Part shown: positions 3,474-19,096 of the stretch, piece after piece | Position numbering within the stretch: position 1 is the stretch's first letter | How the letters are laid out: every line of letters starts with the position of its first letter | Assembly: GCA_024276425.1 (NCBI GenBank) | Contig: JAJRXF010000085.1 | Span: 1-43,282, forward strand | Direction of reading: 5' to 3' | Source: Actinomycetes bacterium | GTDB taxonomy: Bacteria > Actinomycetota > Acidimicrobiia > Acidimicrobiales > SZUA-35 | Length of the DNA stretch: 43,282 bases | Made by a program: the position numbers and the translations under genes | The notes under the pieces: model-generated | The model's input: only the letters and a program-made list of their open reading frames with translations | Databases searched by the model: none | What the model was told of the DNA's origin: nothing

Positions 3474-4229
3474 ATGTCTGCACTAAACCGGGCGATAGAT
3501 CTGCTTCCCGACCCCTTGGTCTGGCGGCTGGTTCATCGGTTTTGGCAATACCAAGAGCCCGAGCTTCGCCAGCTTGGCGACTATATTCTGACGGACAAGA
3601 CCGCGGTCGATATCGGAGCCTGGTGGGGCCCGTGGACCGCAGCCTTCGCCAGACAGTGTCCGAACGTGCACAGTTTCGAGCCCCAGCCTCAGTTGGCAGC
3701 GAGACTGCGACGTTGGGTGCCCGACAATGTTGTCCTACACGAGGCCGCCGTAAGCGATCGAGCTGGTCGAGCGGTTCTTCATCGCCCGGACTCCCTTCCT
3801 GGAACCGATGGTCTGGCCACGTTGCGTACCGATTCCGACGGCCCAAGTGAGAACGTTGGTCAGGACGTCGTTGAGGTAGAAACGGTTACCATCGACTCCT
3901 GCGAACTGAGCAACGTCGGCCTGATGAAGATTGACGTAGAGGGGTTCGAGTTACCAGCATTGCGGGGCGCTGAGCAGACCATCCTTCGCGACCGACCTCG
4001 GCTGATTATCGAGATCGAGCAGCGTCACCTCGACATACCGATTGATGAAGTGTTCAAATGGCTTGTCGAGCGCGAGTATCGGGGGCACTTTCTGCGCGGC
4101 TCGAATTGGGTGAGCCTTGATGAATTCGATGTGGCTCGGGATCAGACCAGACTGGCCGAACAGCCAAAAAGCTCCAAGTACATCAACGCCTTTCTTTTTG
4201 TCGCGGATAGGCAAGACTGGCGTCCGTGA
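3474..4229 (+). CDS. FkbM-family SAM-dependent methyltransferase
   Basis: A 251-residue methyltransferase. The SAM-binding motif I is AVDIGAWWGPWTAAFA, followed by the acidic ribose-binding strand HSFEPQP, and the FkbM hallmark LMKIDVEGFELPALRGAE lies at about residues 146-163. Proteins of this family O-methylate hydroxyls of sugars or polyketides. In this operon a methylated glycan residue is the natural inference. The start ATG 3474 lies 27 nt after the previous stop. The gene ends in a GTGA overlap with the large membrane protein that follows. Length and motif order are normal for the family. Confidence 0.84.
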   Translation: MSALNRAIDLLPDPLVWRLVHRFWQYQEPELRQLGDYILTDKTAVDIGAWWGPWTAAFARQCPNVHSFEPQPQLAARLRRWVPDNVVLHEAAVSDRAGRAVLHRPDSLPGTDGLATLRTDSDGPSENVGQDVVEVETVTIDSCELSNVGLMKIDVEGFELPALRGAEQTILRDRPRLIIEIEQRHLDIPIDEVFKWLVEREYRGHFLRGSNWVSLDEFDVARDQTRLAEQPKSSKYINAFLFVADRQDWRP

Positions 4230-6088
4230 TTGGATCCGGGGCCCAGGTGGGTTGGCTCGTCAAGTTGAGCAGTTCTCCCTGGGCGATCGCCAGTGCGTTG
4301 GTTGGGCTTGCTGGCGGATTCTTGGTTGGTGGGTGGTCTCTGACCGGTGACTTCTTACTGAACTGGGATCAGGTCATTGGCCCAGACATTCCCCTGCCAC
4401 CTGGCGTGTGGGGACTTGGCCCCGAACTACCAAGGCGGGCCCCGTTTTACATCCCTTTGTGGCTTCTCAGCCTGGGTCTGCCGGGGCCGACCGTGGTTGG
4501 AATACTCTTGATTTCTGCCACCGCCATTGGGGTGGTTGGAGCGGCTCGCCTGGTTGGCTTTGGGCCGGTCGGAGTGGTGGCCGGGGTGGTCTATGGGCTG
4601 TCCCCGTTCCTGTTGAGCCGAGCAGCTGTCGGCCACCTACCCGTAGTTGTCGCCACCGCGCTTCTTCCTTGGTTGATGTACGAGATTGAAAGTCGCAATC
4701 CTCGATCCTTGTTTCGGTGGGCGGTTGGGTTTGGATTGCTCGGATCGAGTGGGGCCTTTCTTGGCCTGATTCCAATCGGGCTCGCATTGTGGCAGCGGGG
4801 TCTAAGTACCCGGCTAGTGCTCAAGGGGGCGATGCTTGCCTTCCTCAGCCAAGCGTCGTGGGTAATTCCTGGAGTTGTCGCCATAGCGGTCGGGGTTCCA
4901 TTCCCGACCTCGGAAACATCAGCCTTCGATCTGCGGGTTGACGGAATTAATGGAATCGCTCGGGTGGTTGCTGGTGGTGGGTTGTTCCTGCCCGACGAGG
5001 ATGTGGCTCGCAGAGCGGGAGCGGTAGCCGGATTGTTGGGGCTGGTTCTTCTCGGGCTCGGGGTGAGTGGCCTCCGCCTTCGTTCCCGACCGCTTCACTC
5101 AAATGCTCGCTCCGATCTGATGTGGTGGGTCGCCTTGGTTGGCGCAGCTCTGTTGTTCGTTCCTGCGGTTCCCCTTCTGGGTGACCTTTGGCGGGCTCTT
5201 GTCTCCATCGGGCCTTTCGGCGTCCTCAGAGAGACACAGAAGTTCTGGCCCCTTCTCGGATTGGCGTTGACCGTCGGGTTGGCGCAAATCTTGCGGGCCC
5301 AGTGTCGTGACGTTGGCCTGGCGCTGGGGGTGCTCGTTGGGGCCCTCTTGATTGGATCAAGCATGCCTGGGCTTAGGGGAGCTGGTGGTCGTCTTGAGGC
5401 AGTAGAAGCCCCAGTCGAATGGGCGACGGTCACCGCAGCGCTCGCCTCCGATCCGGGACGCGTTGCCGTCTTCCCTTGGCGCCGCTACGACGCCCTTGGC
5501 TTGTCAAAGGGGCGAACTGTCCTCCAGCCTGGTCCATGGGTCCTCCAGGGTTCGATTCTCATTAGTGCAGATACAGGGAACCGGTCAGCATCGGTCGAGC
5601 GGTTGGAGATCCTGGAGGAAGGCTTGGGCAATGTCGACGCCCAAATTCGAGCTGGCCAGGACGTCGCGCCAGCCCTACGTTCGGCCCGGGTTGACTGGGT
5701 TCTGGTACTGAACGCTGATGAGGCCGCCTTTTATGGGCGGCTTGGTCGCGAGAGCGACGTCACCCAAGTTGTGGCGAGTTCGACGGCGGATCTCTATCGG
5801 ATCGACCCCGGACCGAGCCAGCAGCCTCGACCAAACAGCCAGCTGAGTTGGACCGGCATGCCGATACCCGTGCATCGGGTGAGCGGAGGTGAGAGCTGGG
5901 ATCGGTCCTGTGAACGTGGCTGGTTAGTGGGGTTCTCGCCGTTGGAGCGGACCAAGGGCACTTGCCGGGTTCCGTCCTCGGGCGGGATCCTCTGGTTCCC
6001 TTTGGCTGCCATAGCCATCCTCGGTCCGGTGGTCAGTCTGACGGCGGCCGGGTTCTTGCGACCACAAAGGGTGACGACAGCTGGGTGA
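4226..6088 (+). CDS. Multi-spanning GT-C-like membrane protein
   Basis: A 620-residue polytopic protein starting at GTG 4226, with roughly ten predicted hydrophobic helices in the first 390 residues, one more near the C-terminus (LWFPLAAIAILGPVVSL), and a soluble stretch between. The first outer loop carries acidic residues (NWDQVIGPDIP) where GT-C glycosyltransferases place their catalytic Asp/Glu. The soluble part opens with PGRVAVFPWRRY and ends with DWVLVLNADEAAFYG. This matches the layout I see in the AftD-like half of the fusion at 9198-14072 (GRVLVLPG, then THVLLRNDLDW), so the two may be distant relatives. By inference it uses a polyprenyl-phosphate sugar on the outer membrane face. 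It could instead be a non-enzymatic polymer-handling protein. Substrate unknown. Confidence 0.62.
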   Translation: MIGSGAQVGWLVKLSSSPWAIASALVGLAGGFLVGGWSLTGDFLLNWDQVIGPDIPLPPGVWGLGPELPRRAPFYIPLWLLSLGLPGPTVVGILLISATAIGVVGAARLVGFGPVGVVAGVVYGLSPFLLSRAAVGHLPVVVATALLPWLMYEIESRNPRSLFRWAVGFGLLGSSGAFLGLIPIGLALWQRGLSTRLVLKGAMLAFLSQASWVIPGVVAIAVGVPFPTSETSAFDLRVDGINGIARVVAGGGLFLPDEDVARRAGAVAGLLGLVLLGLGVSGLRLRSRPLHSNARSDLMWWVALVGAALLFVPAVPLLGDLWRALVSIGPFGVLRETQKFWPLLGLALTVGLAQILRAQCRDVGLALGVLVGALLIGSSMPGLRGAGGRLEAVEAPVEWATVTAALASDPGRVAVFPWRRYDALGLSKGRTVLQPGPWVLQGSILISADTGNRSASVERLEILEEGLGNVDAQIRAGQDVAPALRSARVDWVLVLNADEAAFYGRLGRESDVTQVVASSTADLYRIDPGPSQQPRPNSQLSWTGMPIPVHRVSGGESWDRSCERGWLVGFSPLERTKGTCRVPSSGGILWFPLAAIAILGPVVSLTAAGFLRPQRVTTAG

Positions 6089-6181
6089 ATCTCCATTTGC
6101 GTGGTTGTTACCCATGGGTTACTTTGTTGTATGCAAAGAAGGTGTGGCGGCGGTCACAGAAGCCGCAAAGCGAGAAGCAGT

Positions 6182-6676
6182 ATGAGAGCACTAGCCAGAT
6201 TTACAGGCATGATCCTTGTCACAGCATTGACATTGGTCTTCGTTGGCCCTGCGTCGGCCCAATACGGGGAGGACCCACCCGAAACAGTTGTGATTGGAGT
6301 CGGAAACGCCGATCAGGACTGCGAGTTCTTGGCTCGCTTTACGGCTCCCTCGGAGATCGCAGAAACCTATCTCATCTATGTGGTCGGTACCGACGAGGAT
6401 GGCGAGCCCTTCGAATATGTTCTAGCCAACGTCACCCCAGCCTTTGCTGGATTGTCCTGGACTCTGAACGGAATCGATATGGAGCCAGGATCTGAGTTCA
6501 CCATCGAGGCTCGGTACAACAAAGGGACCAACTTGAGCCCACAGGTTCTTGGCATCACCCAGCTGCCAACGACGGGCTCTGATTCGCGAAGCATTGTTGG
6601 CCTTGGCGTTGTCATGACAGTCTTGGGCGGCGCTCTGTTCTACGGCTCACGGGTCCGCAACAGCCGGCTGGCGTGA
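6182..6676 (+). CDS. Secreted protein with C-terminal LPTTG sorting-like signal
   Basis: A 164-residue protein. It has an N-terminal signal peptide (MRALARFTGMILVTALTLV, cleavage likely after ASA), a small acidic outer domain of about 100 residues, and the C-terminal trio of a sortase substrate: LPTTG at residues 128-132, a hydrophobic helix (IVGLGVVMTVLGGALFYG), and a short basic tail SRVRNSRLA. ATG 6182 is chosen because GAGAAG sits 8 nt upstream and the signal peptide then starts properly; an in-frame ATG at 6101 would not give one. No sortase gene lies in the window. Its place between glycan genes and its GTGA coupling to the next gene suggest a wall-linked partner of the glycan. The outer domain is not recognised. 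Confidence 0.74.
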   Translation: MRALARFTGMILVTALTLVFVGPASAQYGEDPPETVVIGVGNADQDCEFLARFTAPSEIAETYLIYVVGTDEDGEPFEYVLANVTPAFAGLSWTLNGIDMEPGSEFTIEARYNKGTNLSPQVLGITQLPTTGSDSRSIVGLGVVMTVLGGALFYGSRVRNSRLA

Positions 6677-7458
6677 GCCCGAACGCCGCCGCTTCGGTCA
6701 GCGTCATCCTTCCTACTCGCAACGAAGAGGCCAATATCGAAGAGGTCCTTCGGCGTATCGACCTACTTGGTGTATGCCATCAGATCGTAGTTGTCGATGA
6801 TGGTGATGACGATACAGCTAGCCGAGCAAGCCACCTTGAAGGACTAACGGCAGACGTCCGTGTCGTCCGCCGCCAAGGATCAGACCGTACCGGCGGCCTC
6901 GGTACGGCCATTGTTGAGGGTCTCTCATACTCCGATGGCGACTTAATCGTCGTCATGGATGCTGACCTGCAGCACCCACCTGAGCTAATCGTCTCCTTGG
7001 TGGAAACCCTTGCGCGAGTCGATCTTTGCATCGCTAGTCGGTTCAATTGGGACAATGTTATTGCTGGCCTCTCGCCGGTCCGGCGGTTCGCATCGCGGTG
7101 TGCTGGTCGCCTTGCCTTCCTGCTTTTCCCGGGTGCGCTGCGCAACGTCAGCGATCCAATGAGTGGCTACTTCGCTGTTCGCCGCTCATCCTTGGATGTC
7201 GGTCGACTCGATCCGGTTGGATACAAGATTCTTCTGGAGATCCTGGGGACTCACCAGCACTTCACGGTGGAAGAGGTGCCATTCTCCTTCGGACGTCGAG
7301 TGAACGGCGACTCCAAAGCAGGGCTACACGAAGGAATGCGATTCCTTCGACACGTCTTCCAACTTCGGCGTCGGACGAAGACCCCCAATTTGACTCGAAC
7401 CCCTCCAGCCGAGGACCTAATCATCGATTCTTCTCCCGGCAGGGTTGTCGTCCGATGA
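6673..7458 (+). CDS. DPM1-like family 2 glycosyltransferase (polyprenyl-phosphate sugar synthase-like)
   Basis: A 261-residue GT2 enzyme resembling dolichyl/polyprenyl-phosphate mannose synthases. Motifs are SVILPTRNEEANIEEVL at the start, IVVVDDGDDDTA, the metal-binding VVMDADLQHPPE, and a late FGRRVNGDSKAGLHEG that matches the DPM1 signature. There is no C-terminal membrane pair, as in the catalytic domain of mycobacterial Ppm1. Such enzymes make polyprenyl-phosphate sugars, the donors used by GT-C enzymes on the outer face. This fits the two large membrane proteins in the locus. It starts at GTG 6673 in a GTGA overlap with the LPTTG gene and ends in an ATGA overlap with the GT4 gene. The sugar specificity is not known. 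Confidence 0.82.
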   Translation: MSPNAAASVSVILPTRNEEANIEEVLRRIDLLGVCHQIVVVDDGDDDTASRASHLEGLTADVRVVRRQGSDRTGGLGTAIVEGLSYSDGDLIVVMDADLQHPPELIVSLVETLARVDLCIASRFNWDNVIAGLSPVRRFASRCAGRLAFLLFPGALRNVSDPMSGYFAVRRSSLDVGRLDPVGYKILLEILGTHQHFTVEEVPFSFGRRVNGDSKAGLHEGMRFLRHVFQLRRRTKTPNLTRTPPAEDLIIDSSPGRVVVR

Positions 7459-8531
7459 GAATGTTGTTTCAAGCGTCCCGTGATCTGGTTCACCCTCACG
7501 CGGGTGGTTCTGAAGTCTATATGGATCATGTCATGACGGGACTGGCCCAACGCGGCCATCAGATCCATCTTTCGGTTGGTAAACCCGTTGGGACGCATCT
7601 TTATGAGGTCAGCGGATCAGGAGGAACGTTCAGTCAATATCCGAAGGCCCCCTTTCGGCTCCTCCGAGATCGAGGTCGCTACGATCTCGTTGTAGACGTC
7701 GCCAATGGGATGACCTACTACTCTCCTTTGGTTCGTCCCGGACCGACGATTTGCCTTGTTCACCATATTCATACCGCAATGTGGTCGGAATGGTTCTCGC
7801 CTCCGGTTGCTGCATTCGGCCGCTTCCTCGAGCGTAAGATGATGCCGCTGGCGTATCGCTCGGCCACTTTCATCGCCGTGTCAAATTCGACCAAGACGGA
7901 ACTGGTCAAGCTTGGAGTCGACCCCTCGCGAATCGAGATCGTACACAACGCCACTCTGGTTCCGGAGGTCCCGGTGGCGGTTAAGGACACCGAACCTCTT
8001 TTCGTTGCCGTTGGGCGGCTCGTTCCTCACAAACAGTTGCACCTTCTACTAGAGCGCTGGCCCGAGGTCCGAGCCCAGACGGGCGGGAAATTGGTAATCG
8101 TCGGCGAGGGACCAGAGCGGGCGAGACTGGAACCTCTACTGAGCGCGGGAGCGACGTTGGCGGGAAAGGTCACTGAGGCCGAACGAGACGCGCTTCTTGC
8201 CCGTGCGACCGTCTTGCTCCATCCCTCCCATGTAGAAGGCTGGGGGCTTGTGGTGATGGAGGCGGCGGCCCAGCAGACACCAACTATCGGCTTCGATGTG
8301 GCTGGCGTCCGTGATTCCGTTTGTCACGAGCAGACCGGCTGGCTTTGTGCGGATCTTGATGAGTATGTGGATCGCTGGATTGAGGCGGCACAAGATCGAG
8401 AGTCAACTGGTCTTGTTGGCAAGAGGGCCAGAGAGTGGTCGGAGAGTTTTGGAGTGGAGAGGACTGTCGATGCCTTCGAGTCGGTTGCCCGGGCGACGGT
8501 TGCCAACTACGGCCTACCTAACGGTGGTTAG
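7455..8531 (+). CDS. Family 4 glycosyltransferase (GT-B fold)
   Basis: A 358-residue GT4 enzyme starting at ATG 7455, which overlaps the preceding stop as ATGA. The N-terminal acceptor domain has HAGGSEVYMDHVMTGLAQRG. The C-terminal donor domain has PLFVAVGRLVPHKQLHLLL, LVIVGEGPERARLE, and the EX7E signature in HPSHVEGWGLVVMEAAA, whose two Glu residues hold the nucleotide sugar. Length is normal for retaining GT4 enzymes. An in-frame ATG at 7047 lies far inside the preceding gene and is rejected. It probably adds one sugar to the lipid-linked intermediate on the cytoplasmic face; the linkage is not readable. Confidence 0.87.
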   Translation: MRMLFQASRDLVHPHAGGSEVYMDHVMTGLAQRGHQIHLSVGKPVGTHLYEVSGSGGTFSQYPKAPFRLLRDRGRYDLVVDVANGMTYYSPLVRPGPTICLVHHIHTAMWSEWFSPPVAAFGRFLERKMMPLAYRSATFIAVSNSTKTELVKLGVDPSRIEIVHNATLVPEVPVAVKDTEPLFVAVGRLVPHKQLHLLLERWPEVRAQTGGKLVIVGEGPERARLEPLLSAGATLAGKVTEAERDALLARATVLLHPSHVEGWGLVVMEAAAQQTPTIGFDVAGVRDSVCHEQTGWLCADLDEYVDRWIEAAQDRESTGLVGKRAREWSESFGVERTVDAFESVARATVANYGLPNGG

Positions 8532-8545
8532 AAGCCCGAGCTTTC

Positions 8546-9265
8546 GTGACTTTTGAGGAAGCGACCGCCCCATCGGCCCTAGAGATTCTTCGGCGATTCC
8601 GGAGCGAGAAGACCAATCCAGAGCCCTTCTATGTTGGGTTGGCCGACCGGACAGTTCTTGGATTTGACCGTCAACTTGAAGGGAAAACCATCCTGGATCT
8701 TGGTTGTGGGCCGGGTTGGTACTCGGTGGCTCTGAAGCGAGCAGGTGCAGATGTCGTCGGTCTCGATCTCGGACAAGCCGACATCGCGGAGGCTGCCGCT
8801 CGAGGAGTGACCGCTTTGGTCGGTGATGGCATGCAGTTGCCCTTCGCTGACGCCACCTTCGACGGCATTTTCTGCTCGAATCTCCTGGAACATGTTCCTG
8901 ATCAGAAACGAGTAACGGATGAGATTGCTCGTTTGCTCAAGCCCGGTGGCTGGGGCTGGATCAGCTGGACCCCATGGTTCTCACCCTGGGGAGGACATGA
9001 GATCGTGCCCCTGCATCTCATCGGCCCCAAACTTGGTCCCCGGCTCTGGGAACGTCTCAAGGGTAAACCAGCCAAGAATGTTCCCTATGAAGGGTTGTGG
9101 CCAACCTATGTCGGGAGCGTTGTCAAAGGCGTTCGGGACGATAGGCGAGTACGCGTTGATGCTGTCTACCCGCGTTACTACCCATTCATGCGTTGGATCA
9201 TGTCGGTTCCTGGTCTTCGAGAGTTTGCCTCGTGGAACTGCGTAATCGAGTTGACTCGTCGCTAG
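8546..9265 (+). CDS. Class I SAM-dependent methyltransferase
   Basis: A 239-residue methyltransferase of the UbiE/COQ5-like (Methyltransf_11) style. Motif I is ILDLGCGPGWYSVALKRAG, followed by VVGLDLGQADI, LPFADATFDGIFCSN (motif II region), LLEHVPDQ, and RLLKPGGWGWISW (motif III region). It starts at GTG 8546, 14 nt after the GT4 stop, and is the last gene of the plus-strand unit. Its 3' end overlaps the 3' end of the opposing fusion gene by 68 bp. A lipid-carrier or sugar methylation role is inferred from context. The small-molecule substrate cannot be assigned from the sequence. Confidence 0.83.
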   Translation: MTFEEATAPSALEILRRFRSEKTNPEPFYVGLADRTVLGFDRQLEGKTILDLGCGPGWYSVALKRAGADVVGLDLGQADIAEAAARGVTALVGDGMQLPFADATFDGIFCSNLLEHVPDQKRVTDEIARLLKPGGWGWISWTPWFSPWGGHEIVPLHLIGPKLGPRLWERLKGKPAKNVPYEGLWPTYVGSVVKGVRDDRRVRVDAVYPRYYPFMRWIMSVPGLREFASWNCVIELTRR

Positions 9266-12200
9266 CCGCCATGAGGGTGATGGTGAGCAGTCCAGTGACA
9301 ATGCTCGCGACCGGAGCTGCCTGATCGACGTCTAGGAGAGCACCAGACTGGCCGATTAAGGTTGAGGCACTAATGAGGGCCATGAGACCGACACCGGTCG
9401 CGGCCAGCCCCAGAAGAAGGCTTACCCCTCGTCGCGATCCGGCTAGGAGGAGTATGGCTATGCCCATCACGGCGCCTGCGAGGCCGAGCGTTCCGCCAAC
9501 GAAATAGGAGATGAGACCAAGGGCGCCGTAGTTGACCCATCGCAGAACTCGCCTCTCAGGCTTATCAATCGGACCGGCCCGTACCGCCTGTCGAATGCTG
9601 GGTTGGGGTGAAACAATCAGACCAAAACTGAGCAGTACCCCGACAAAAGTGATGGCCAAGGCCACCTTGAGAGGCCGTTCTGCTGTGAACTCGGGTTTGG
9701 AGATTGTTATGGCCTCCGGAATCACCCAGCCGTTTAACGAGTCCAGCGGCACGGGCGTAAGGCTTTCCGTGTCTCCGGAAACCGGCAATCGCCAACGGGC
9801 ATCAAAGGCAGCGTTCCAGACTAGAAGATCACCGGGTTCGACAGGCATTGTTTCAGAGAGATCGATCACTTGCCGGGTCACAGGCGAAGGCTGCTCCTGG
9901 TCGGAGTCCAGTCTGAGTATGCCAACTCCATCCCCGTCCAGCGGCTGGAGTTCGATTGTGTGAGTGCCAGCTTCTAGAGGGATTCCAATGACAGAGGGAC
10001 AAAGGGTTAGTCGGCCCTCATTGTTAGCCCCGGGGGTGTAGCGCACGGGAATGTATTGGCCATCAATTTTCAACAAGTTCGCGTTGCAGCGTGTTGTCGT
10101 GCCCGGACTTGTCATCGTCGCACTGAGGCTGAAGGTGTCCGCCCTCCAAAGAGTAAACTTTCGAGAGAGACCAACGCCGTCTTCGTTGGGTCCTTCCATA
10201 AGAATTGTGAGGGGAACGGCGGATAGCTCGTCCTTAAGGGTGGGAAACTGTTCTAACAACGAGGTGAGGTCTGAGGGCATCGTCGTGACTATGACAGGGG
10301 AGTCCTCACTGAGGAAAACGTCCTCTATTCCGGTCGGACGAAGAGCCGAAGCGGTCGGGTCGAAGACGATGGTGATGTTCGAGAACGGAAGAGTCGGACG
10401 GAGTTCAAGACCCTCCTCGGTTGGGGTGAAAGCGGTAGGAATGCTGTCAAGGAGAACGGTTGGTTGCTGTCTTTGGTCGCTTGGGTTGACAAGGCTGATC
10501 TTGACGAGGATCGAGCGGTTGGGTTCGCGGAGTGAGAGGGACCATTGCTGGGTGCTTGTCGAGACGAGGAAGGGAATCCTCCATGCCGTGTTCGGATCTC
10601 CGTCGAGGGCCGCCACTGGCTGACTTTTCGCGCCGAGAAGCCACGGGTCGATGCTCGAGGAAACACTGGCCCCGTCGAGATCGACGGTTGTCATCGTTCC
10701 TGGATCGGCGAATCCAGTCAGCCAGTGATTGATCGAGGAGCTGATCTCAGCCTCGTCCTTGAGAACTGGAATCTCGCTAAAGCCGTAGTACTCGATCCGA
10801 CGTTCTTGCTGGCGGTTCGTGTCGGTCAGGACCATTCGTGAAATGTCTCCAGTGAGATCATCCACTTGTGTTGATGTCACCGTCGCGCTCAACCGAATGA
10901 TCTCATTGCCGTCCAATAAACCTTGGCTGGCAGCCTGAAGAACGCCATCTCCGTCGCCCGAAAGTAGTATCTGTCGGGGAGCGTTGTTAGCTGGCAACCT
11001 CCACATTGATGAGACTGGTGATGGCTGGGCTATGCCGTCGGGACGAATGGCGTAGATCTGGATGGCCGGGAGTTCGCGCTCCACCGGGTCTCGAACCGGA
11101 TCAAGGGGAGAGGTCGAGAACAAACCGGGGTTCCCGAACTCGGCGACAGGAACCAGATCAGGGTCGGACCGGAGGCTTTGAAGATCTCGTGGGCGAGGAA
11201 GGCCTTGGCGTTCCCAATCGAGGTCGTTGCGAAGAAGAACGTGAGTCATACCAAGACGGCGAGCGAGGGGAGCCAACGTGCCCGGTTGATAGGAAGGACT
11301 CGTGAGAAGCTCGTCCAGAGACTGGATGAGTTCTGCTCCCAAAGCGGTACTCAGCGGAAGAGTTGAAGCTACGACTCGGTTGGGGATAATGGGATCGAGG
11401 AGGTCATCCCCGACCGATCCCCACCGGTAGCCATTGTTCGTCGAGCCGGGCAGCACCAGAACCCGGCCCTCTGGGGGGTTATCTGAAAACCATTCGGCGG
11501 TTTCCTGCCAGTGATCTGGAACCGAGTTCGAGGTGAGGGCCGGGTCGTAGAGAGCGGTTCGCCAGAAGGGCTGGAAAAGCGCTAGAAGTAGGGCGGCGAT
11601 GATCACCGCTGGGACCAAGCGAGAGGTTTCGAATCTTCTTCGCCAGGCTCTGGTCAGTGATGAGATCCCAGCAGCTCCGAGGAGAGACGTTCCCAGAGCC
11701 ATGCCGACACCCGCCTTGTGGGTGCTGCGAAATCCAAAAGCCAACTCCGACTGCTCGTACAGCCACAAGATCAATCGACCGTACGTCGTCGGATTGTCGA
11801 TGGGGTGAGGTCCGGTCATCAATACCACGGCAGCGAGGATCCATGCCAGAATCAAGAAATCGCAGGATCGTCGGTGTCGGAGAATTCCAACGAGCCCAAC
11901 AAGAAGTGGGATAAAGGTCACTATCACCAGTACGGGACTCTCAAGAAAGAGCAGTCCTTGGGTCCGGAGTGGCGTCGGTCCAAGTCGGAAGTAGCTGAGC
12001 CAGAAGCCCATTCCTCGAAATGATTCAGACATCGAGGAGAACCCAGCGACGGTGTCGGCTGACTCTGTCTCGATGAGTCGGTGGCTGAGCGCTTCGGCGC
12101 CGGAGGAGGTTTTGACCATCATCGCTGCGCTGGTCATGCCCGCGGTCACAATGGTTAGGAGGGTGAAAATTAGAAGTGGTCGTCGAGTGGGCGGACGGGC

Positions 12201-14072
12201 GACGAACAGGCTGATCCAGGTGATCAGGGCAGGGACCAGTGCGTACGCGAGGCCCGGTATATCAGCGTTGCCAGCCAAGAAGATGCACAGGGAGACGATC
12301 CCGGACCATCGGAGTACTCCGATCCCCCGGCTGGCTCGAATGACGCCGATGACTGCCCAGGGAGCGATGGTGTAGCTGAGGTAGAGTGGCGAGGGCACGA
12401 GGAACAAGGCCGAGAATGGGCCGAACGCGTAGAGGGCTCCGGCGAGAATTGTTGTGAGGGGGTTCTGGTATTTTAGTGTTCGACTTAGAACCATGGCTCC
12501 AATACCGGCCAGCGAGATCAGGAAGGCGTGGATAAGTCGTTCATTAATCCAAGCGGGAAGTCCCAGCTCAGAAAACAAAGTTGAAAGCAGAACAAGGCCC
12601 GGCCAGAACTCCTCCGCCGTGCGCCCAAGGTCGCGGCTCGGATCCCAGAGGTGCAGGCTCCGGGTGAGCCGCGCTGTTGGATTGACAAAGAGTTCATACC
12701 GAGCGTCGGCGACGTAAACACCGGGTCTGGCCAGCAGCGTGACAACGAGTGCAAGAGCACTCGTCATGGTGGCTAGGACCGGAAGGGAGCCTACTGATGC
12801 TCGAAGTGTCGTCTCCTGCTCCAGTATCGTCGACATCGGTCCCGATCGGACAGAAGCGGTCCCCGGCTGCTCATCTGTTGCCAGCCCGGCGCTGGGCCCT
12901 CCCGAACTCGGCCGATCCTGACTTGGCTTGTGAGAGCGTCGAAGCCCAAGACGCTCATCGACCCATCTTGCGGCGGGAACCTCAACCAGACGGTGGACTC
13001 CATAGGCCGCAAGAATGGTCGTCGCCAGCGCGAGTGGTGTGAGGACCCAACGATTCGGATTCCAACGGTCTAGTAGTTCATCGATCACGACGGGGTGAAT
13101 AAGGTAGACGCCGTAAGAAATCGACCCAACCCAGCCAGCGAGACGTGAGGAAAGCAGACGACCGGCCGCTCCGAGTTGAGCATTGGGGAGAACGGCAGCG
13201 CTCAAGAGTAAAAAGCTTGCCAGTGCCTGTAATCCGAACTGGGCGTGGGTTTGGAACGAAGTTGTTGGCACGAACCCACCGGGGATTCCGATTCTGGTCA
13301 CCACCCAGTACGAAGCCAGGCCGAGACCTGCGAGGAGTCCCGGCTGACGAGCGAGCCTTCTAACCGTTATCGGTGGAGTGCGAATCCGCCAGTAGGTGGT
13401 AAGAATGGCCAGGATCGTGCCTGCCGCGAACCAATCCAGGTAGGCGGGTACCCACAGCAGTTCTCCACCCCCGCGCTCTTGACTTACCGCCCAGATGCGA
13501 AAGACGTTGGCCAGTCCGGCTAGCCATATAAACCCGGCGAGTTGAACGAAGAGCTTGGTTCGGAGGTTTTGTAGATGCCCGAAGCGTCGCAGCACTGCAG
13601 CGATAAAGGGGAGCGCCGTGGAGAACCACAATTCGATAGAGAGCGACCACGCAACAAATGGTGGGATAAAGACGAGACTTCCTCGAAAATTCTGAATGAG
13701 GGTGTAGGCGGTCAGATAGTCGCCGAAACTGGTCGCCCCTCCCCGGCCGAGTACAAATAGATGGACAGTCAGCACTGTCCAGTAAAGGGGAAGAATCCGG
13801 GCCGCCCTGCGCAGGACGAAACCTACTGTGTCGACAGGCTCTCCAATGCCAAATGCCCAGGTAGCGAAGGGGCGATAAATCAGGAAACCAGAAAGGGCAA
13901 AGAAGAGGGAGACGGCGGCGCTTCCCAGGGGGATGATCCACTGACCAAGAGTGCCCTGTGGGGGTTGTATGGAGGCAATGTGGAACCCGAAGACGGCCAA
14001 GGCCGCGAGGGCGCGGTAGCCAGCCAAAGAAGGGATCCACTGAGTGGACCGAGGGTTCGCAGCCGAAGTCAC
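9198..14072 (-). CDS. Acyltransferase-3 domain fused to AftD-like arabinofuranosyltransferase
   Basis: A 1624-residue membrane protein with two parts in one unbroken reading. Residues 1-380 are an acyltransferase-3 (OafA-like) domain: YRALAALAVFGFH (likely catalytic His31), SLFFALSGFLIYRPF and RRAARILPLYW. A polar linker (about 381-420) leads to a GT-C core with many helices (about 424-900), then GRVLVLPG and a long outer region. That region includes an AftD-family stretch ending in MVLTDTNRQQERR and a discoidin-like piece (AALDGDPNTAWRI, near residue 1157). The last four or so helices fill residues 1470-1610. The core resembles alpha-(1->3)-arabinofuranosyltransferases (DUF3367). It starts at GTG 14072 in a GTGA overlap with the upstream gene. 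Inference: it glycosylates and acylates one outer-face polymer. Confidence 0.82.
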   Translation of the reverse strand: MTSAANPRSTQWIPSLAGYRALAALAVFGFHIASIQPPQGTLGQWIIPLGSAAVSLFFALSGFLIYRPFATWAFGIGEPVDTVGFVLRRAARILPLYWTVLTVHLFVLGRGGATSFGDYLTAYTLIQNFRGSLVFIPPFVAWSLSIELWFSTALPFIAAVLRRFGHLQNLRTKLFVQLAGFIWLAGLANVFRIWAVSQERGGGELLWVPAYLDWFAAGTILAILTTYWRIRTPPITVRRLARQPGLLAGLGLASYWVVTRIGIPGGFVPTTSFQTHAQFGLQALASFLLLSAAVLPNAQLGAAGRLLSSRLAGWVGSISYGVYLIHPVVIDELLDRWNPNRWVLTPLALATTILAAYGVHRLVEVPAARWVDERLGLRRSHKPSQDRPSSGGPSAGLATDEQPGTASVRSGPMSTILEQETTLRASVGSLPVLATMTSALALVVTLLARPGVYVADARYELFVNPTARLTRSLHLWDPSRDLGRTAEEFWPGLVLLSTLFSELGLPAWINERLIHAFLISLAGIGAMVLSRTLKYQNPLTTILAGALYAFGPFSALFLVPSPLYLSYTIAPWAVIGVIRASRGIGVLRWSGIVSLCIFLAGNADIPGLAYALVPALITWISLFVARPPTRRPLLIFTLLTIVTAGMTSAAMMVKTSSGAEALSHRLIETESADTVAGFSSMSESFRGMGFWLSYFRLGPTPLRTQGLLFLESPVLVIVTFIPLLVGLVGILRHRRSCDFLILAWILAAVVLMTGPHPIDNPTTYGRLILWLYEQSELAFGFRSTHKAGVGMALGTSLLGAAGISSLTRAWRRRFETSRLVPAVIIAALLLALFQPFWRTALYDPALTSNSVPDHWQETAEWFSDNPPEGRVLVLPGSTNNGYRWGSVGDDLLDPIIPNRVVASTLPLSTALGAELIQSLDELLTSPSYQPGTLAPLARRLGMTHVLLRNDLDWERQGLPRPRDLQSLRSDPDLVPVAEFGNPGLFSTSPLDPVRDPVERELPAIQIYAIRPDGIAQPSPVSSMWRLPANNAPRQILLSGDGDGVLQAASQGLLDGNEIIRLSATVTSTQVDDLTGDISRMVLTDTNRQQERRIEYYGFSEIPVLKDEAEISSSINHWLTGFADPGTMTTVDLDGASVSSSIDPWLLGAKSQPVAALDGDPNTAWRIPFLVSTSTQQWSLSLREPNRSILVKISLVNPSDQRQQPTVLLDSIPTAFTPTEEGLELRPTLPFSNITIVFDPTASALRPTGIEDVFLSEDSPVIVTTMPSDLTSLLEQFPTLKDELSAVPLTILMEGPNEDGVGLSRKFTLWRADTFSLSATMTSPGTTTRCNANLLKIDGQYIPVRYTPGANNEGRLTLCPSVIGIPLEAGTHTIELQPLDGDGVGILRLDSDQEQPSPVTRQVIDLSETMPVEPGDLLVWNAAFDARWRLPVSGDTESLTPVPLDSLNGWVIPEAITISKPEFTAERPLKVALAITFVGVLLSFGLIVSPQPSIRQAVRAGPIDKPERRVLRWVNYGALGLISYFVGGTLGLAGAVMGIAILLLAGSRRGVSLLLGLAATGVGLMALISASTLIGQSGALLDVDQAAPVASIVTGLLTITLMAASDESTRLRSSTRQTLEDQEPT

Positions 14073-15010
14073 TCGGCTGGCTGGTCGGTGCTGATTTGGA
14101 TGGCGTAGAACTCCAAGAATCCTCCGTCCGAGGACGCAGAACTAATCAAACCGGCCGAGGTAGCAGTTTCGAAGGACGGATCGATGATCGTCAGCATCGG
14201 AGATCCATCGACGAAAATCTGGATTTCGGGCCCCTCCAGACGGATCGATAGTCGAACACCAGGATCGGTGGAACTGAGTCCGGTAGCTTCCGAACGAATC
14301 GTTTCTCCGTCAACCACCAACACGAGATTCCAAGTACCGAAATCTGGAGCAGCAGTAAGGGCCCAATAGTTGAAGATATCAACGAAGCGAAAGACGAGGC
14401 CAGTACCGACCGGGGCGGTGGCGACGGTGGCCCCGATTGTGGCGTCACTCCAACCGGTATCGACGATGGCGATTCCCCGTTCACCGTCCGCTCCTGCTCC
14501 GATCATGGCTTGACCGTCACCAACAGAAAATTCTGTTCCGACCGTGCTCCATGGGGTTTCTCCAGAAACGATCTCGCCCAGTTGGGCTGCATCATTTCGA
14601 ACGAAGTCATCGAAGACGCGCTCGGTCGAAGGCAGTTCGGCGATCACTGCCGATACGCGCTCAGTATCTGAGCGACTCCCAAGGTACAAGCCTGCTCCAA
14701 GGAGTAGAACCATTGCCAGCATGGCCCCGCCAACCAGACGAGCAGTGAGGCGTTCGTCATCCTTGGGCAGAACGCGATGGTCGAGATGCTCTTGGGAGGC
14801 GGGTGAAGGGTTCGTCGACAAGTCCGAGTCTGTGACGCGGACGTAGTGGGTGATTTCTGTTCGAACGATGCGCTCGTTGGGAGCACCGATGGACGGGATA
14901 GTTGGGGAGTCAACCGCTCCGCCGATATCAACAACGCTTGAGTCGTGCCAGCCATCTACGGACCGGTCCTGGTTGTCTTCGTCGCGAGTTGTTGCTTCTT
15001 CTTCAGTCAT
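14069..15010 (-). CDS. [10 protein letters not shown] membrane protein with LamG-like outer domain
   Basis: A 313-residue protein. The first 90 residues are acidic, polar and probably disordered in the cytoplasm. One membrane helix follows (about residues 91-111, LVGGAMLAMVLLLGAGLYLG), then an outer domain of about 200 residues with the beta-rich pattern of concanavalin/LamG or DUF1080-like glycan-binding folds: VFRFVDIFNYWALTAAPDFG, LSIRLEGPEIQIFVDGSPML, and a closing GGFLEFYAIQIS. No catalytic motif is visible. Its start and stop both overlap neighbouring genes by 4 nt, placing it tightly between the flippase and the fusion enzyme. By inference it is a glycan-sensing or scaffold subunit for polymer handling. 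Confidence 0.66.
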   Translation of the reverse strand: MTEEEATTRDEDNQDRSVDGWHDSSVVDIGGAVDSPTIPSIGAPNERIVRTEITHYVRVTDSDLSTNPSPASQEHLDHRVLPKDDERLTARLVGGAMLAMVLLLGAGLYLGSRSDTERVSAVIAELPSTERVFDDFVRNDAAQLGEIVSGETPWSTVGTEFSVGDGQAMIGAGADGERGIAIVDTGWSDATIGATVATAPVGTGLVFRFVDIFNYWALTAAPDFGTWNLVLVVDGETIRSEATGLSSTDPGVRLSIRLEGPEIQIFVDGSPMLTIIDPSFETATSAGLISSASSDGGFLEFYAIQISTDQPAE

Positions 15011-16290
15011 GCGGCAAGTCCAGTGCTTCGGTAGCGCTTCCGGTCAAGGGCAGCGATAGCGACGGCCATCGAAATGAGGTTGGCTACAAGCCAAACAATG
15101 GTAGCCCCCCAGATTGGGCGACTTGGGAGAAGGGCCAGGCAACCGAGAACGGTCACCACGGCGAGCGTCCAAGTGATGAGATTGGTGGTCCTTGCGTCGT
15201 GGGTTAGCCGAGCCTCGGTCAAGCAGACCGAGGTCACACCCCAGCAGAGCGCAGCGAGAAGTAGCCAGGGAAGGATCTCAGCTTGGGCGGAGTAGGTCGG
15301 TCCAATCAGTCGTAGAACCGGACGGGCGAATAGGAGGCTTCCGACCCAGGCGCTTATACCGAGGGTGAGATTTGCGGCCAGAGTCGCCCGAAGCCTGTTG
15401 GCGCGACCATACGTTTGAAGGCTTGTTTCCGAGAGAAGAACCTGGGCTAGCGTTTGAGGAACCAACGCCGCCATGAGCCCGATTCCCCAGACCAGGTAGA
15501 AGGGGGCGTTCAGAGCGCTGGGTACCTGGCGGGATACCAGGAACGGGACGATGAAGTATGGGGCCTGTGTGGCGAGTGCCGCGAGGTGTTGGGTTGACAG
15601 GAAACGACGTTGATCAGGTGTCAATGACCAAGGTGAACAAAGACTGATTTGTCTGGTCTTTACCAACCATCCTGCGCTTAGAAACCCCGAGGCTGCAATT
15701 GGTCCGATGGCGAGCAATGTGATCCAAGTTGCTCGGTCATTGAATGGGTCGAGAAAGAGCAGGGGAATTCGGAGCAGTATTGGCGTTGTGCCGCGAATGA
15801 AAACCAGCGGCCAACGTCGTAGGGACATCAGCCTCGCGTCCGCCCCTATTGTCAGGCTGGCACCTACTGCGGCCAGAGCAAACAGGGGAGCGAGGGCGCC
15901 GGGTCCTCGGCCGGACAACTGAGCCCACTCGGCCGATGCCAGAAACGGGGCGATTAACCCAATTGTTAGAGCAGCGGCTCCAACCGTGACTAGGCCAGCA
16001 CCCGCGATGCGAGCGGCGCCAGTGGCGGACCCGTGACGAATAATCAGAATGGGGAGGCCGATGGCGGCAACGGAAACCCCGAGTTGGACGAGGGTGAACC
16101 ATGCGGTAGCGACTCCGACCGGATCGGCCTGGTCCGAGGTCGCTGCTGCCAGCACCCAGAAGGTGAATCCGCCAAGGGAGGCAGTTGCAACGGTTGCTAG
16201 GGACCAGACTGAGCCGCGCCACAGGTTCTTTCGACCCTGTTCCGCGTGGGCTGACCCTCTGTCCTCGACGGTGGAAGCAGGGTGTGGCAT
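15007..16290 (-). CDS. Wzx-like polysaccharide flippase (MOP superfamily)
   Basis: A 427-residue protein that is mostly membrane helices (about twelve), with a short polar N-terminus and the start NLWRGSVWSLATVATASLGG typical of Wzx/RfbX transporters. It lacks long soluble domains. These proteins move lipid-linked oligosaccharides across the cytoplasmic membrane. That fits between the cytoplasmic transferases of the facing operon and the outer-face enzymes downstream. It starts at ATG 16290. Its stop overlaps the next gene as ATGA, and it appears to be first in the minus-strand unit. Similar helices occur in MATE exporters, but the glycan context favours a flippase. Confidence 0.78.
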   Translation of the reverse strand: MPHPASTVEDRGSAHAEQGRKNLWRGSVWSLATVATASLGGFTFWVLAAATSDQADPVGVATAWFTLVQLGVSVAAIGLPILIIRHGSATGAARIAGAGLVTVGAAALTIGLIAPFLASAEWAQLSGRGPGALAPLFALAAVGASLTIGADARLMSLRRWPLVFIRGTTPILLRIPLLFLDPFNDRATWITLLAIGPIAASGFLSAGWLVKTRQISLCSPWSLTPDQRRFLSTQHLAALATQAPYFIVPFLVSRQVPSALNAPFYLVWGIGLMAALVPQTLAQVLLSETSLQTYGRANRLRATLAANLTLGISAWVGSLLFARPVLRLIGPTYSAQAEILPWLLLAALCWGVTSVCLTEARLTHDARTTNLITWTLAVVTVLGCLALLPSRPIWGATIVWLVANLISMAVAIAALDRKRYRSTGLAA

Positions 16291-19024: not shown

Positions 19025-19096
19025 TACCCCCGGCGAGAATCGAACTCACGCACATGGTTCCGGAAACCAATGCTCTATCCACTGAGCTACGGGGGC
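19025..19096 (-). tRNA. tRNA-Arg (anticodon CCG)
   Basis: Read on the minus strand, the gene folds as a cloverleaf: acceptor GCCCCCG pairs with CGGGGGT (one G-U pair at the end); the D arm is GCTC/GAGC; the anticodon loop is TTCCGGA with anticodon CCG; the T loop is TTCGATT on stem GTGAG/CTCGC. One T-T mismatch sits at the top of the anticodon stem. The CCA end is not encoded. It reads CGG arginine codons. No gene is visible in the 160 bp between it and the regulator remnant. Confidence 0.9.

Follow-up and report, generated by a model that had tools for sequence, protein, structure and literature searches.

An acyltransferase-3 domain joined to an AftD-type glycosyltransferase

The stretch of DNA analysed here (the window) comprises 43,282 nucleotides, positions 1 to 43,282 of contig JAJRXF010000085.1, from the draft genome of an Actinomycetes bacterium of the order Acidimicrobiales (GCA_024276425.1, hereafter G000; 3.95 Mb in 203 contigs, 96.1% complete). 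Its minus strand carries, at 9198..14072, a gene in which an acyltransferase-3 (AT3) domain is fused to a GT-C glycosyltransferase of the AftD type. The gene forms one frame of 1624 residues without an internal stop, running from a GTG start at 14072, which overlaps the stop of the preceding gene (GTGA), to a stop codon that ends at 9198; the plus-strand reading of the same interval contains many stops. A first-pass annotation made from the sequence alone had described one unbroken 1624-residue reading here, and this description held, with the frame lying on the minus strand. Pfam lists two families for the protein at E 0.01, PF01757 and PF11847, with no SGNH domain C-terminal to AT3, and G000 encodes a single PF11847 protein and, at E 1e-10, a single AT3 domain of this kind.

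The AT3 domain (residues 16-359; 12996..14027, minus strand) matches Acyl_transf_3 (PF01757) at E 2.5e-19, with 70 bits against a cut-off of 31, over positions 4-324 of the 326-position profile. AT3 enzymes are characterised by an R/K-X10-H motif in helix 1, a V-x-x-F-F-x-(I/V/L)-S-G-(F/W/Y) motif and an RxxR motif (PMC7448272, PMC9558356). All three are intact in the window protein as R20-X10-H31, VSLFFALSGF (54-63, with FFALSG at 57-62) and R89-A-A-R92, in agreement with the complete domain, His31 and RRAARILPLYW of the first-pass annotation. The residues R20, H31, F57, F58, S61, G62, R89 and R92 are conserved across G000 and two further genomes, G018 and G053. Simple hydropathy gave ten peaks in residues 1-360, consistent with the ten AT3 helices, in a region where the structural model is weak (block means 33-68). 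The modelled AT3 half superposed on HGSNAT (8vly) with Z 11.2 over 288 residues at a root-mean-square deviation (rmsd) of 5.6, a score under the safe level for helical proteins that we do not use as proof, and a profile of the domain found nothing in the PDB at E 0.1.

After a linker of weak conservation and low model confidence that is predicted to be cytoplasmic (residues 360-429; 12786..12995, minus strand), the GT-C_AftD domain (residues 441-1093; 10794..12752, minus strand) matches PF11847 at E 2.3e-68, with 231.2 bits against a cut-off of 26. Among solved structures the nearest are those of mycobacterial AftD (6w98, 6wbx/6wby), to which residues 436-1011 align at E 5e-25. Confidence in the model of this half is good for the most part, most block means lying between 71 and 97, with a drop to 44 around residue 700. 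The model superposes on AftD 6w98 with Z 34.5 over 570 residues at rmsd 3.8, against Z 22.0 for the GT-C enzyme ranked next after AftD; Foldseek matches were dominated by GT-C enzymes. The AftD-like core is thus supported by both sequence and fold. An acidic residue after the first GT-C helix is given as a rule for GT-C enzymes in PMC11127046, and Asp456, which stands at this position, aligns to an Asp of 6w98 and is invariant in all three rows of our alignment A1, is the candidate catalytic residue.

The C-terminal part (residues 1010-1624; 9201..11045, minus strand) combines a region resembling discoidin and carbohydrate-binding modules (CBMs) with four terminal hydropathy peaks. A profile of these residues and nine relatives matched mycobacterial AftD (1.7e-22) and the CBM-like sialidase domain 2v72 (4.4e-7), in support of the discoidin-like outer part noted in the first pass. 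At E 0.01 Pfam gives the window protein no F5/8C match, the corresponding protein of G018 reaches 21.1 bits for F5/8C, below the cut-off of 28.2, and the C-terminal model is poor (mean pLDDT 59.9).

By hydropathy the chain orders as 10 helices (AT3), a linker of 69 residues, 11 helices (GT-C), a stretch of 632 residues (83 acidic, 45 basic) and 4 terminal helices. If the N-terminus lies inside, this simple prediction would keep the linker inside and place Asp456 and the H31-bearing end of helix 1 at the outer side, so that both the AT3 and the GT-C sites probably face outward. With 10 helices before and 11 after the linker, no extra helix is therefore required for both sites to lie outside.

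The same fusion in a second genome, and its rarity

Another draft genome of the same family (G018, 94% complete) encodes the same fusion as a frame of 1840 residues that runs through the same junction; the two proteins share 50% identity over residues 1-1120, and the linker is poorly kept. Because the same fusion and the same gene order occur in a second genome, in a protein only 50% identical over this range, we conclude that the fusion is not a frame artefact. A frame break near 12800-12930, which the first-pass annotation had raised as a sign of two separate genes, was not found, and a merger of two genes is ruled out by the G018 frame. Likewise, a chance long frame is ruled out by the two profile matches over cut-off, and an assembly chimera is unlikely given that G018 shows the same fusion with the same flanks. 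The gene is a real, rare and lineage-bound fusion of two known enzyme kinds.

Within a family sample of 39 genomes, three matched when the complete protein was the query: G000 and G018 along both halves and G034 with a fragment that begins at a contig end, giving full fusions in 2 of 39. Surveys of the order and the phylum, in which the best two candidates per genome were scored for PF11847, the GT-C alignment and the fused query and the best four for the AT3 alignment, found full fusions in 2 of 397 and 1 of 396 genomes, respectively. PF11847 itself was matched at E 0.001 in 197 of the 397 order genomes. The GT-C alignment search of the order was headed by G000, G018 and the unfused protein of G053, which score high by construction, the A1 and A5 profiles having been built from these three. 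In the AT3 alignment search, of the eight rows identified within 300 bases of an AftD-type gene on the same strand, only those of G000 and G018 were in frame with it. The fused query was matched at E 1e-40 by 23 of the 396 phylum genomes, with both halves covered only in G000. Among 29 AftD-like loci besides that of the window, each checked over up to 1500 bases before the match (some stretches being shorter), AT3 was in frame only at L026 and L017, both in G018. A 2068-residue open frame with AT3 in G053 (C254) was set aside, a helicase-like gene being visible by eye there in another frame.

The first-pass annotation had suggested that the arrangement would be new. Full AT3-AftD fusions were indeed confined to G000 and G018 within the genomes searched, and no description of one was found in the literature searched, a search whose reach excluded most subscription journals; two papers on AT3 enzymes mention AT3 alone and AT3-SGNH among the bacterial forms that have been characterised (PMC7448272, PMC9558356). 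The broader claim is qualified by G222, in which AT3 is joined to a GT-C of another family.

In the GT-C tree (23 rows), support of 100/99 separated the clade of the fusion (14 rows) from the remaining 9 rows, a group to which the two rows nearest the PF11847 profile, G041_C13c and G053_C145b, belong. The fusions of G000 and G018 grouped together at 100/100 in this tree and at 100/100 in the AT3 tree (19 rows), in which 10 of 16 inner branches were open.

Gene neighbourhood

The gene before the fusion gene (P0002; 14069..15010, minus strand) encodes a 313-residue protein that by eye comprises one membrane segment followed by a conserved domain of unnamed family, in which a likeness to laminin-G-like domains may be suspected; its profile found nothing in the PDB at E 0.1, and a homologue occupies the same place in G018. 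It is overlapped by 4 bases by a gene for a 427-residue membrane protein tentatively assigned as flippase-like (P0003; 15007..16290, minus strand). This protein itself matches neither a Pfam nor an NCBIfam family and found nothing at E 0.1 in a PDB profile search (A6), and its homologue in G267 matches PF01943 at E 2.4e-4 with 21.1 bits, below the cut-off of 28.2. On account of the 4-base overlap and the GTGA start/stop overlap, we read the flippase-like, P0002 and fusion genes as one run.

A convergent S-adenosylmethionine (SAM) methyltransferase gene (8546..9265, plus strand), found in the same place in G018, overlaps the end of the fusion gene. The two share 68 bases (9198-9265), and the G018 frames overlap too (L060 10491-10613). 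Beyond it on the plus strand lie genes for a GT4 glycosyltransferase (7455..8531), for a GT2 glycosyltransferase (6673..7458; PF00535, 3.1e-20) that is a candidate polyprenyl-phosphate sugar synthase and whose NCBIfam matches, all far below cut-offs, include AglJ, ArnC-type and PpgS, and for a 620-residue protein (4226..6088) that is weakly MmpA-like (a trehalose lipid delivery family; 134 bits against a cut-off of 210) and has homologues in the cluster of other genomes. The order is not known for mycolic acids, which makes an MmpA-like protein odd there. A small protein at 6101-6676 weakly resembles LPXTG anchors (E 0.024, short of the cut-off). The flanks in G018 match those of the window in the flippase-like, P0002-like, fusion, convergent methyltransferase, GT4, GT2 and 620-residue protein genes and in a weak homologue, in the same place, of the small protein. 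Elsewhere in the window, an Alg14-like gene adjoins a GT28 C-terminal-type (Alg13-like) gene at 1349-2529, like two-part glycosyltransferases, and a tRNA gene (19025-19096, minus strand) is the sole Rfam match at gathering score.

Homologues were mapped by profile at 15 loci in 14 genomes that carry the fusion's GT-C clade, two loci of G178, from the other clade, being left out. AT3 was present at 8 of the 15: G000 and G018 have it fused, G053, G041, G292 and G135 have it unfused as the gene immediately preceding the GT-C on the same strand, and G222 and, as a weak match, G128 (C179) have it at another place in the stretch. The flippase-like gene was present at 11 of 15 loci and a P0002-like gene at 8 of 15, with several stretches stopping at contig ends, so that misses are not proof of absence. 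In G248 (C5) and G053 (C184), AT3 adjoins a P0002-like gene without the GT-C.

Across the order, AT3 of the fusion's kind was found at E 1e-30 in 92 of 397 genomes (124 rows). At least 50 of these 124 rows (at least 46 of the 92 genomes) lay within 10 kb of an AftD-type gene and at least 13 within 300 bases, 8 of them on the same strand with AT3 first, including both fusions; these counts are lower bounds, all 124 AT3 rows having been compared with part of the AftD rows. By a rough estimate, random placement of the few such genes in genomes of ~2-6 Mb would put ~1% within 10 kb. The AT3 genes are therefore tied to the GT-C clade of the fusion and to other AftD-like genes.

Other members of the cluster are fused elsewhere. 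In G267 (L109:8275-14025, C262) an AftD-type GT-C, a discoidin-like part and a flippase-like protein share one frame of 1917 residues; in G018 (L060:11219-13138, minus strand) GT2 and GT4, separate in the window, form one gene of 639 residues; and in G222 (L169:3030-7811, minus strand, C1) AT3 and a PMT_2-type GT-C (PF13231) share one frame of 1594 residues, followed by eye by a second GT-C-like stretch. This repeated fusion of cluster members argues that their products work side by side.

Proposed function

We propose, with a probability of roughly one half (about 0.53), that the fusion protein is a two-step surface-glycan enzyme, in which AT3 acylates and the GT-C adds sugar to the same outer-face glycan. 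The AT3 domain would carry an acyl group (acetyl, succinyl or similar) across the membrane from the cytoplasm onto the glycan. The AftD-type GT-C, joined through the cytoplasmic linker, would add to the same glycan a sugar from a polyprenyl-phosphate donor, and the discoidin-like part would hold the polymer. The neighbouring GT2 (6673-7458) would probably make the donor and the flippase-like protein (15007-16290) would flip it, following the scheme of three-component periplasmic glycosylation. Both catalytic activities are inferred here, as are the common acceptor, the donor and the sequence in which the steps occur; joint work of the two halves on one surface glycan appears likely, as suggested by other genomes in which AT3 genes stand immediately ahead of the GT-C gene. 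A precedent for acylating a GT-C-built polymer is the succinylation of mycobacterial arabinan by SucT (PMC10503756).

A bolder version, which we regard as speculative and unlikely, is a single-chain acylating glycosyltransferase that acylates sugars as they are added, with one shared acceptor, the AftD family of this order having moved from arabinose to a polyprenyl-phosphate hexose. An acyl-carrier protein (ACP) is reported to be bound to mycobacterial AftD, where it seems to matter (PMC7341804), and for this reason the acyl donor of AT3 might even be an acyl-ACP held by the GT-C half.

Several observations weigh against the two-step reading. No AT3 was found in the stretch at 7 of the 15 loci (G248, G038, G128 C18, G049, G267, G052, G298), some of which are truncated by contig ends, and full fusions were found twice only. 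The nearest genus mate, G001, is without a PF11847 protein and has a partial and weak AT3 match (3.3e-12). The AT3 tree does not show the fused AT3 to derive from the AT3 genes adjacent elsewhere, and the flippase and donor-synthase assignments are weak. Finally, G053, G248 and G267 have other AftD-like proteins yet no decaprenyl-P phosphoribosyltransferase (DPPRS), which implies either that the link between PF11847 and the arabinose donor decaprenyl-phosphoarabinose (DPA) is loose in this order or that drafts miss genes.

Sugar donor and alternative readings

The best-surviving alternative, which we nevertheless consider doubtful, holds that the protein is indeed an arabinofuranosyltransferase, with DPA as its donor and arabinan as the polymer it acylates, in effect SucT and AftD in one chain, and that the DPA genes were missed. 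In its favour, both sequence and fold place the GT-C half nearest to AftD, and SucT is known to succinylate arabinan. Three genomes that keep the pair as separate genes also carry donor genes: G041 and G292 pass the cut-off for DPPRS as well as for DprE1, and G135 encodes DPPRS. To weigh this reading we searched 17 genomes for DPPRS (NF008978) and DprE1 (NF053785, cut-off 500). DPPRS exceeded its cut-off in 9 of 17; of 14 controls, 8 matched, C. glutamicum among them, and 1 was over cut-off. For DprE1, 5 of 17 genomes exceeded the cut-off and two more came close (450 and 456 bits). In contrast to what this alternative calls for, DPPRS had no match at E 0.001 in G000, G018, G034 or G001, nor in G053, G248, G267 or G298, and full DprE1 was not found in G000, G018, G034 or G001, no DprE1-model match in the first three exceeding 84 bits (best scores 59.8 in G000 and 70 in G018, with one G000 protein at 75.1 in a separate search). 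The two UbiA-family proteins in each of G000 and G018 are a heme O synthase and MenA, the G000 ALO match is an FAD-linked sugar-lactone-type oxidase, and the only PF11847 protein of this 96.1% complete genome is the fusion itself. Absence in a draft may mislead, as G053 encodes a protein near the AftD profile (E 6.3e-200) with no DPPRS found. This close relative (G053:C145, L063:5271-7106) is divergent from the unfused AT3/GT-C pair on the same contig.

Since neither G000 nor G018 yielded the known genes for the arabinose donor, the arabinofuranosyl transfer named in the first-pass annotation is unsupported. The sugar is probably not arabinofuranose, and a polyprenyl-phosphate sugar from the neighbouring GT2 is the likelier donor.

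It is less probable again that the two halves have different substrates, either through a chance fusion or because the chain is cut, or restarted at the ATG of residue 413, to give two separate proteins. The weakly conserved linker with its low model confidence, the in-frame ATG at 12836 that opens the GT-C half and the mostly open AT3 tree would all be consistent with such a separation. However, the frame stays open in two genomes that are 50% identical over residues 1-1120, AT3 and GT-C genes are adjacent in other genomes, and by eye, no scan having been made, no strong ribosome-binding site precedes the ATG at 12836. That AT3 is a non-enzymatic anchor, gate or regulator of the GT-C is very improbable: the low-confidence AT3 model and the acyl-carrier protein on mycobacterial AftD (PMC7341804), which makes control from the cytoplasmic side conceivable, are set against the retention of all eight AT3 motif residues in the three genomes compared.

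Comparison with known systems

If the two-step reading is true, extension and acylation of an outer-face glycan would be coupled in one chain. The result also cautions against naming PF11847 ('AftD') proteins arabinofuranosyltransferases in genomes that lack the DPA genes, and it points to the recurrent cluster (flippase-like, P0002-type, AT3, GT-C, methyltransferase, GT4, GT2 and 620-residue protein) as a probable surface-glycan system.

The fusion shares with mycobacterial AftD (GT53; 6w98, 6wbx, 6wby) the GT-C core, the acidic residue after the first GT-C helix and the discoidin/CBM-like outer part. It differs in that residue 436 of the fusion aligns to residue 20 of 6w98 or 45 of 6wbx, leaving no room for AT3 in AftD, in that its GT-C falls in a clade apart (100/99) from the order's nearest AftD-profile relatives, and in that the DPA route was not found in G000. 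SucT (Rv1565c) is an AT3 protein. Like the reading proposed here, it involves the acylation of an envelope polymer that GT-C enzymes build (PMC10503756), whereas SucT is encoded by a separate gene and has arabinan as its substrate.

In the AT3-SGNH proteins OafA, OafB and OatA, an N-terminal AT3 with R-X10-H, FFxxSG and RxxR is likewise fused to an outer-face partner (PMC7448272). The partner in the fusion is a GT-C and not SGNH, and by hydropathy count the 11th linking helix is unneeded. The GtrABS and Citrobacter youngae GT136 systems offer a lipid-linked sugar donor, a flippase and a GT-C, with a CBM on the GT-C, according to PMC11127046; the fusion differs in having an AftD-type GT-C with a joined acyltransferase, and its donor maker and flippase are assigned by neighbourhood alone. 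A further parallel is the AT3-PMT_2 fusion of G222, which also places AT3 before a GT-C in one chain and differs in that the GT-C belongs to another family (PF13231).

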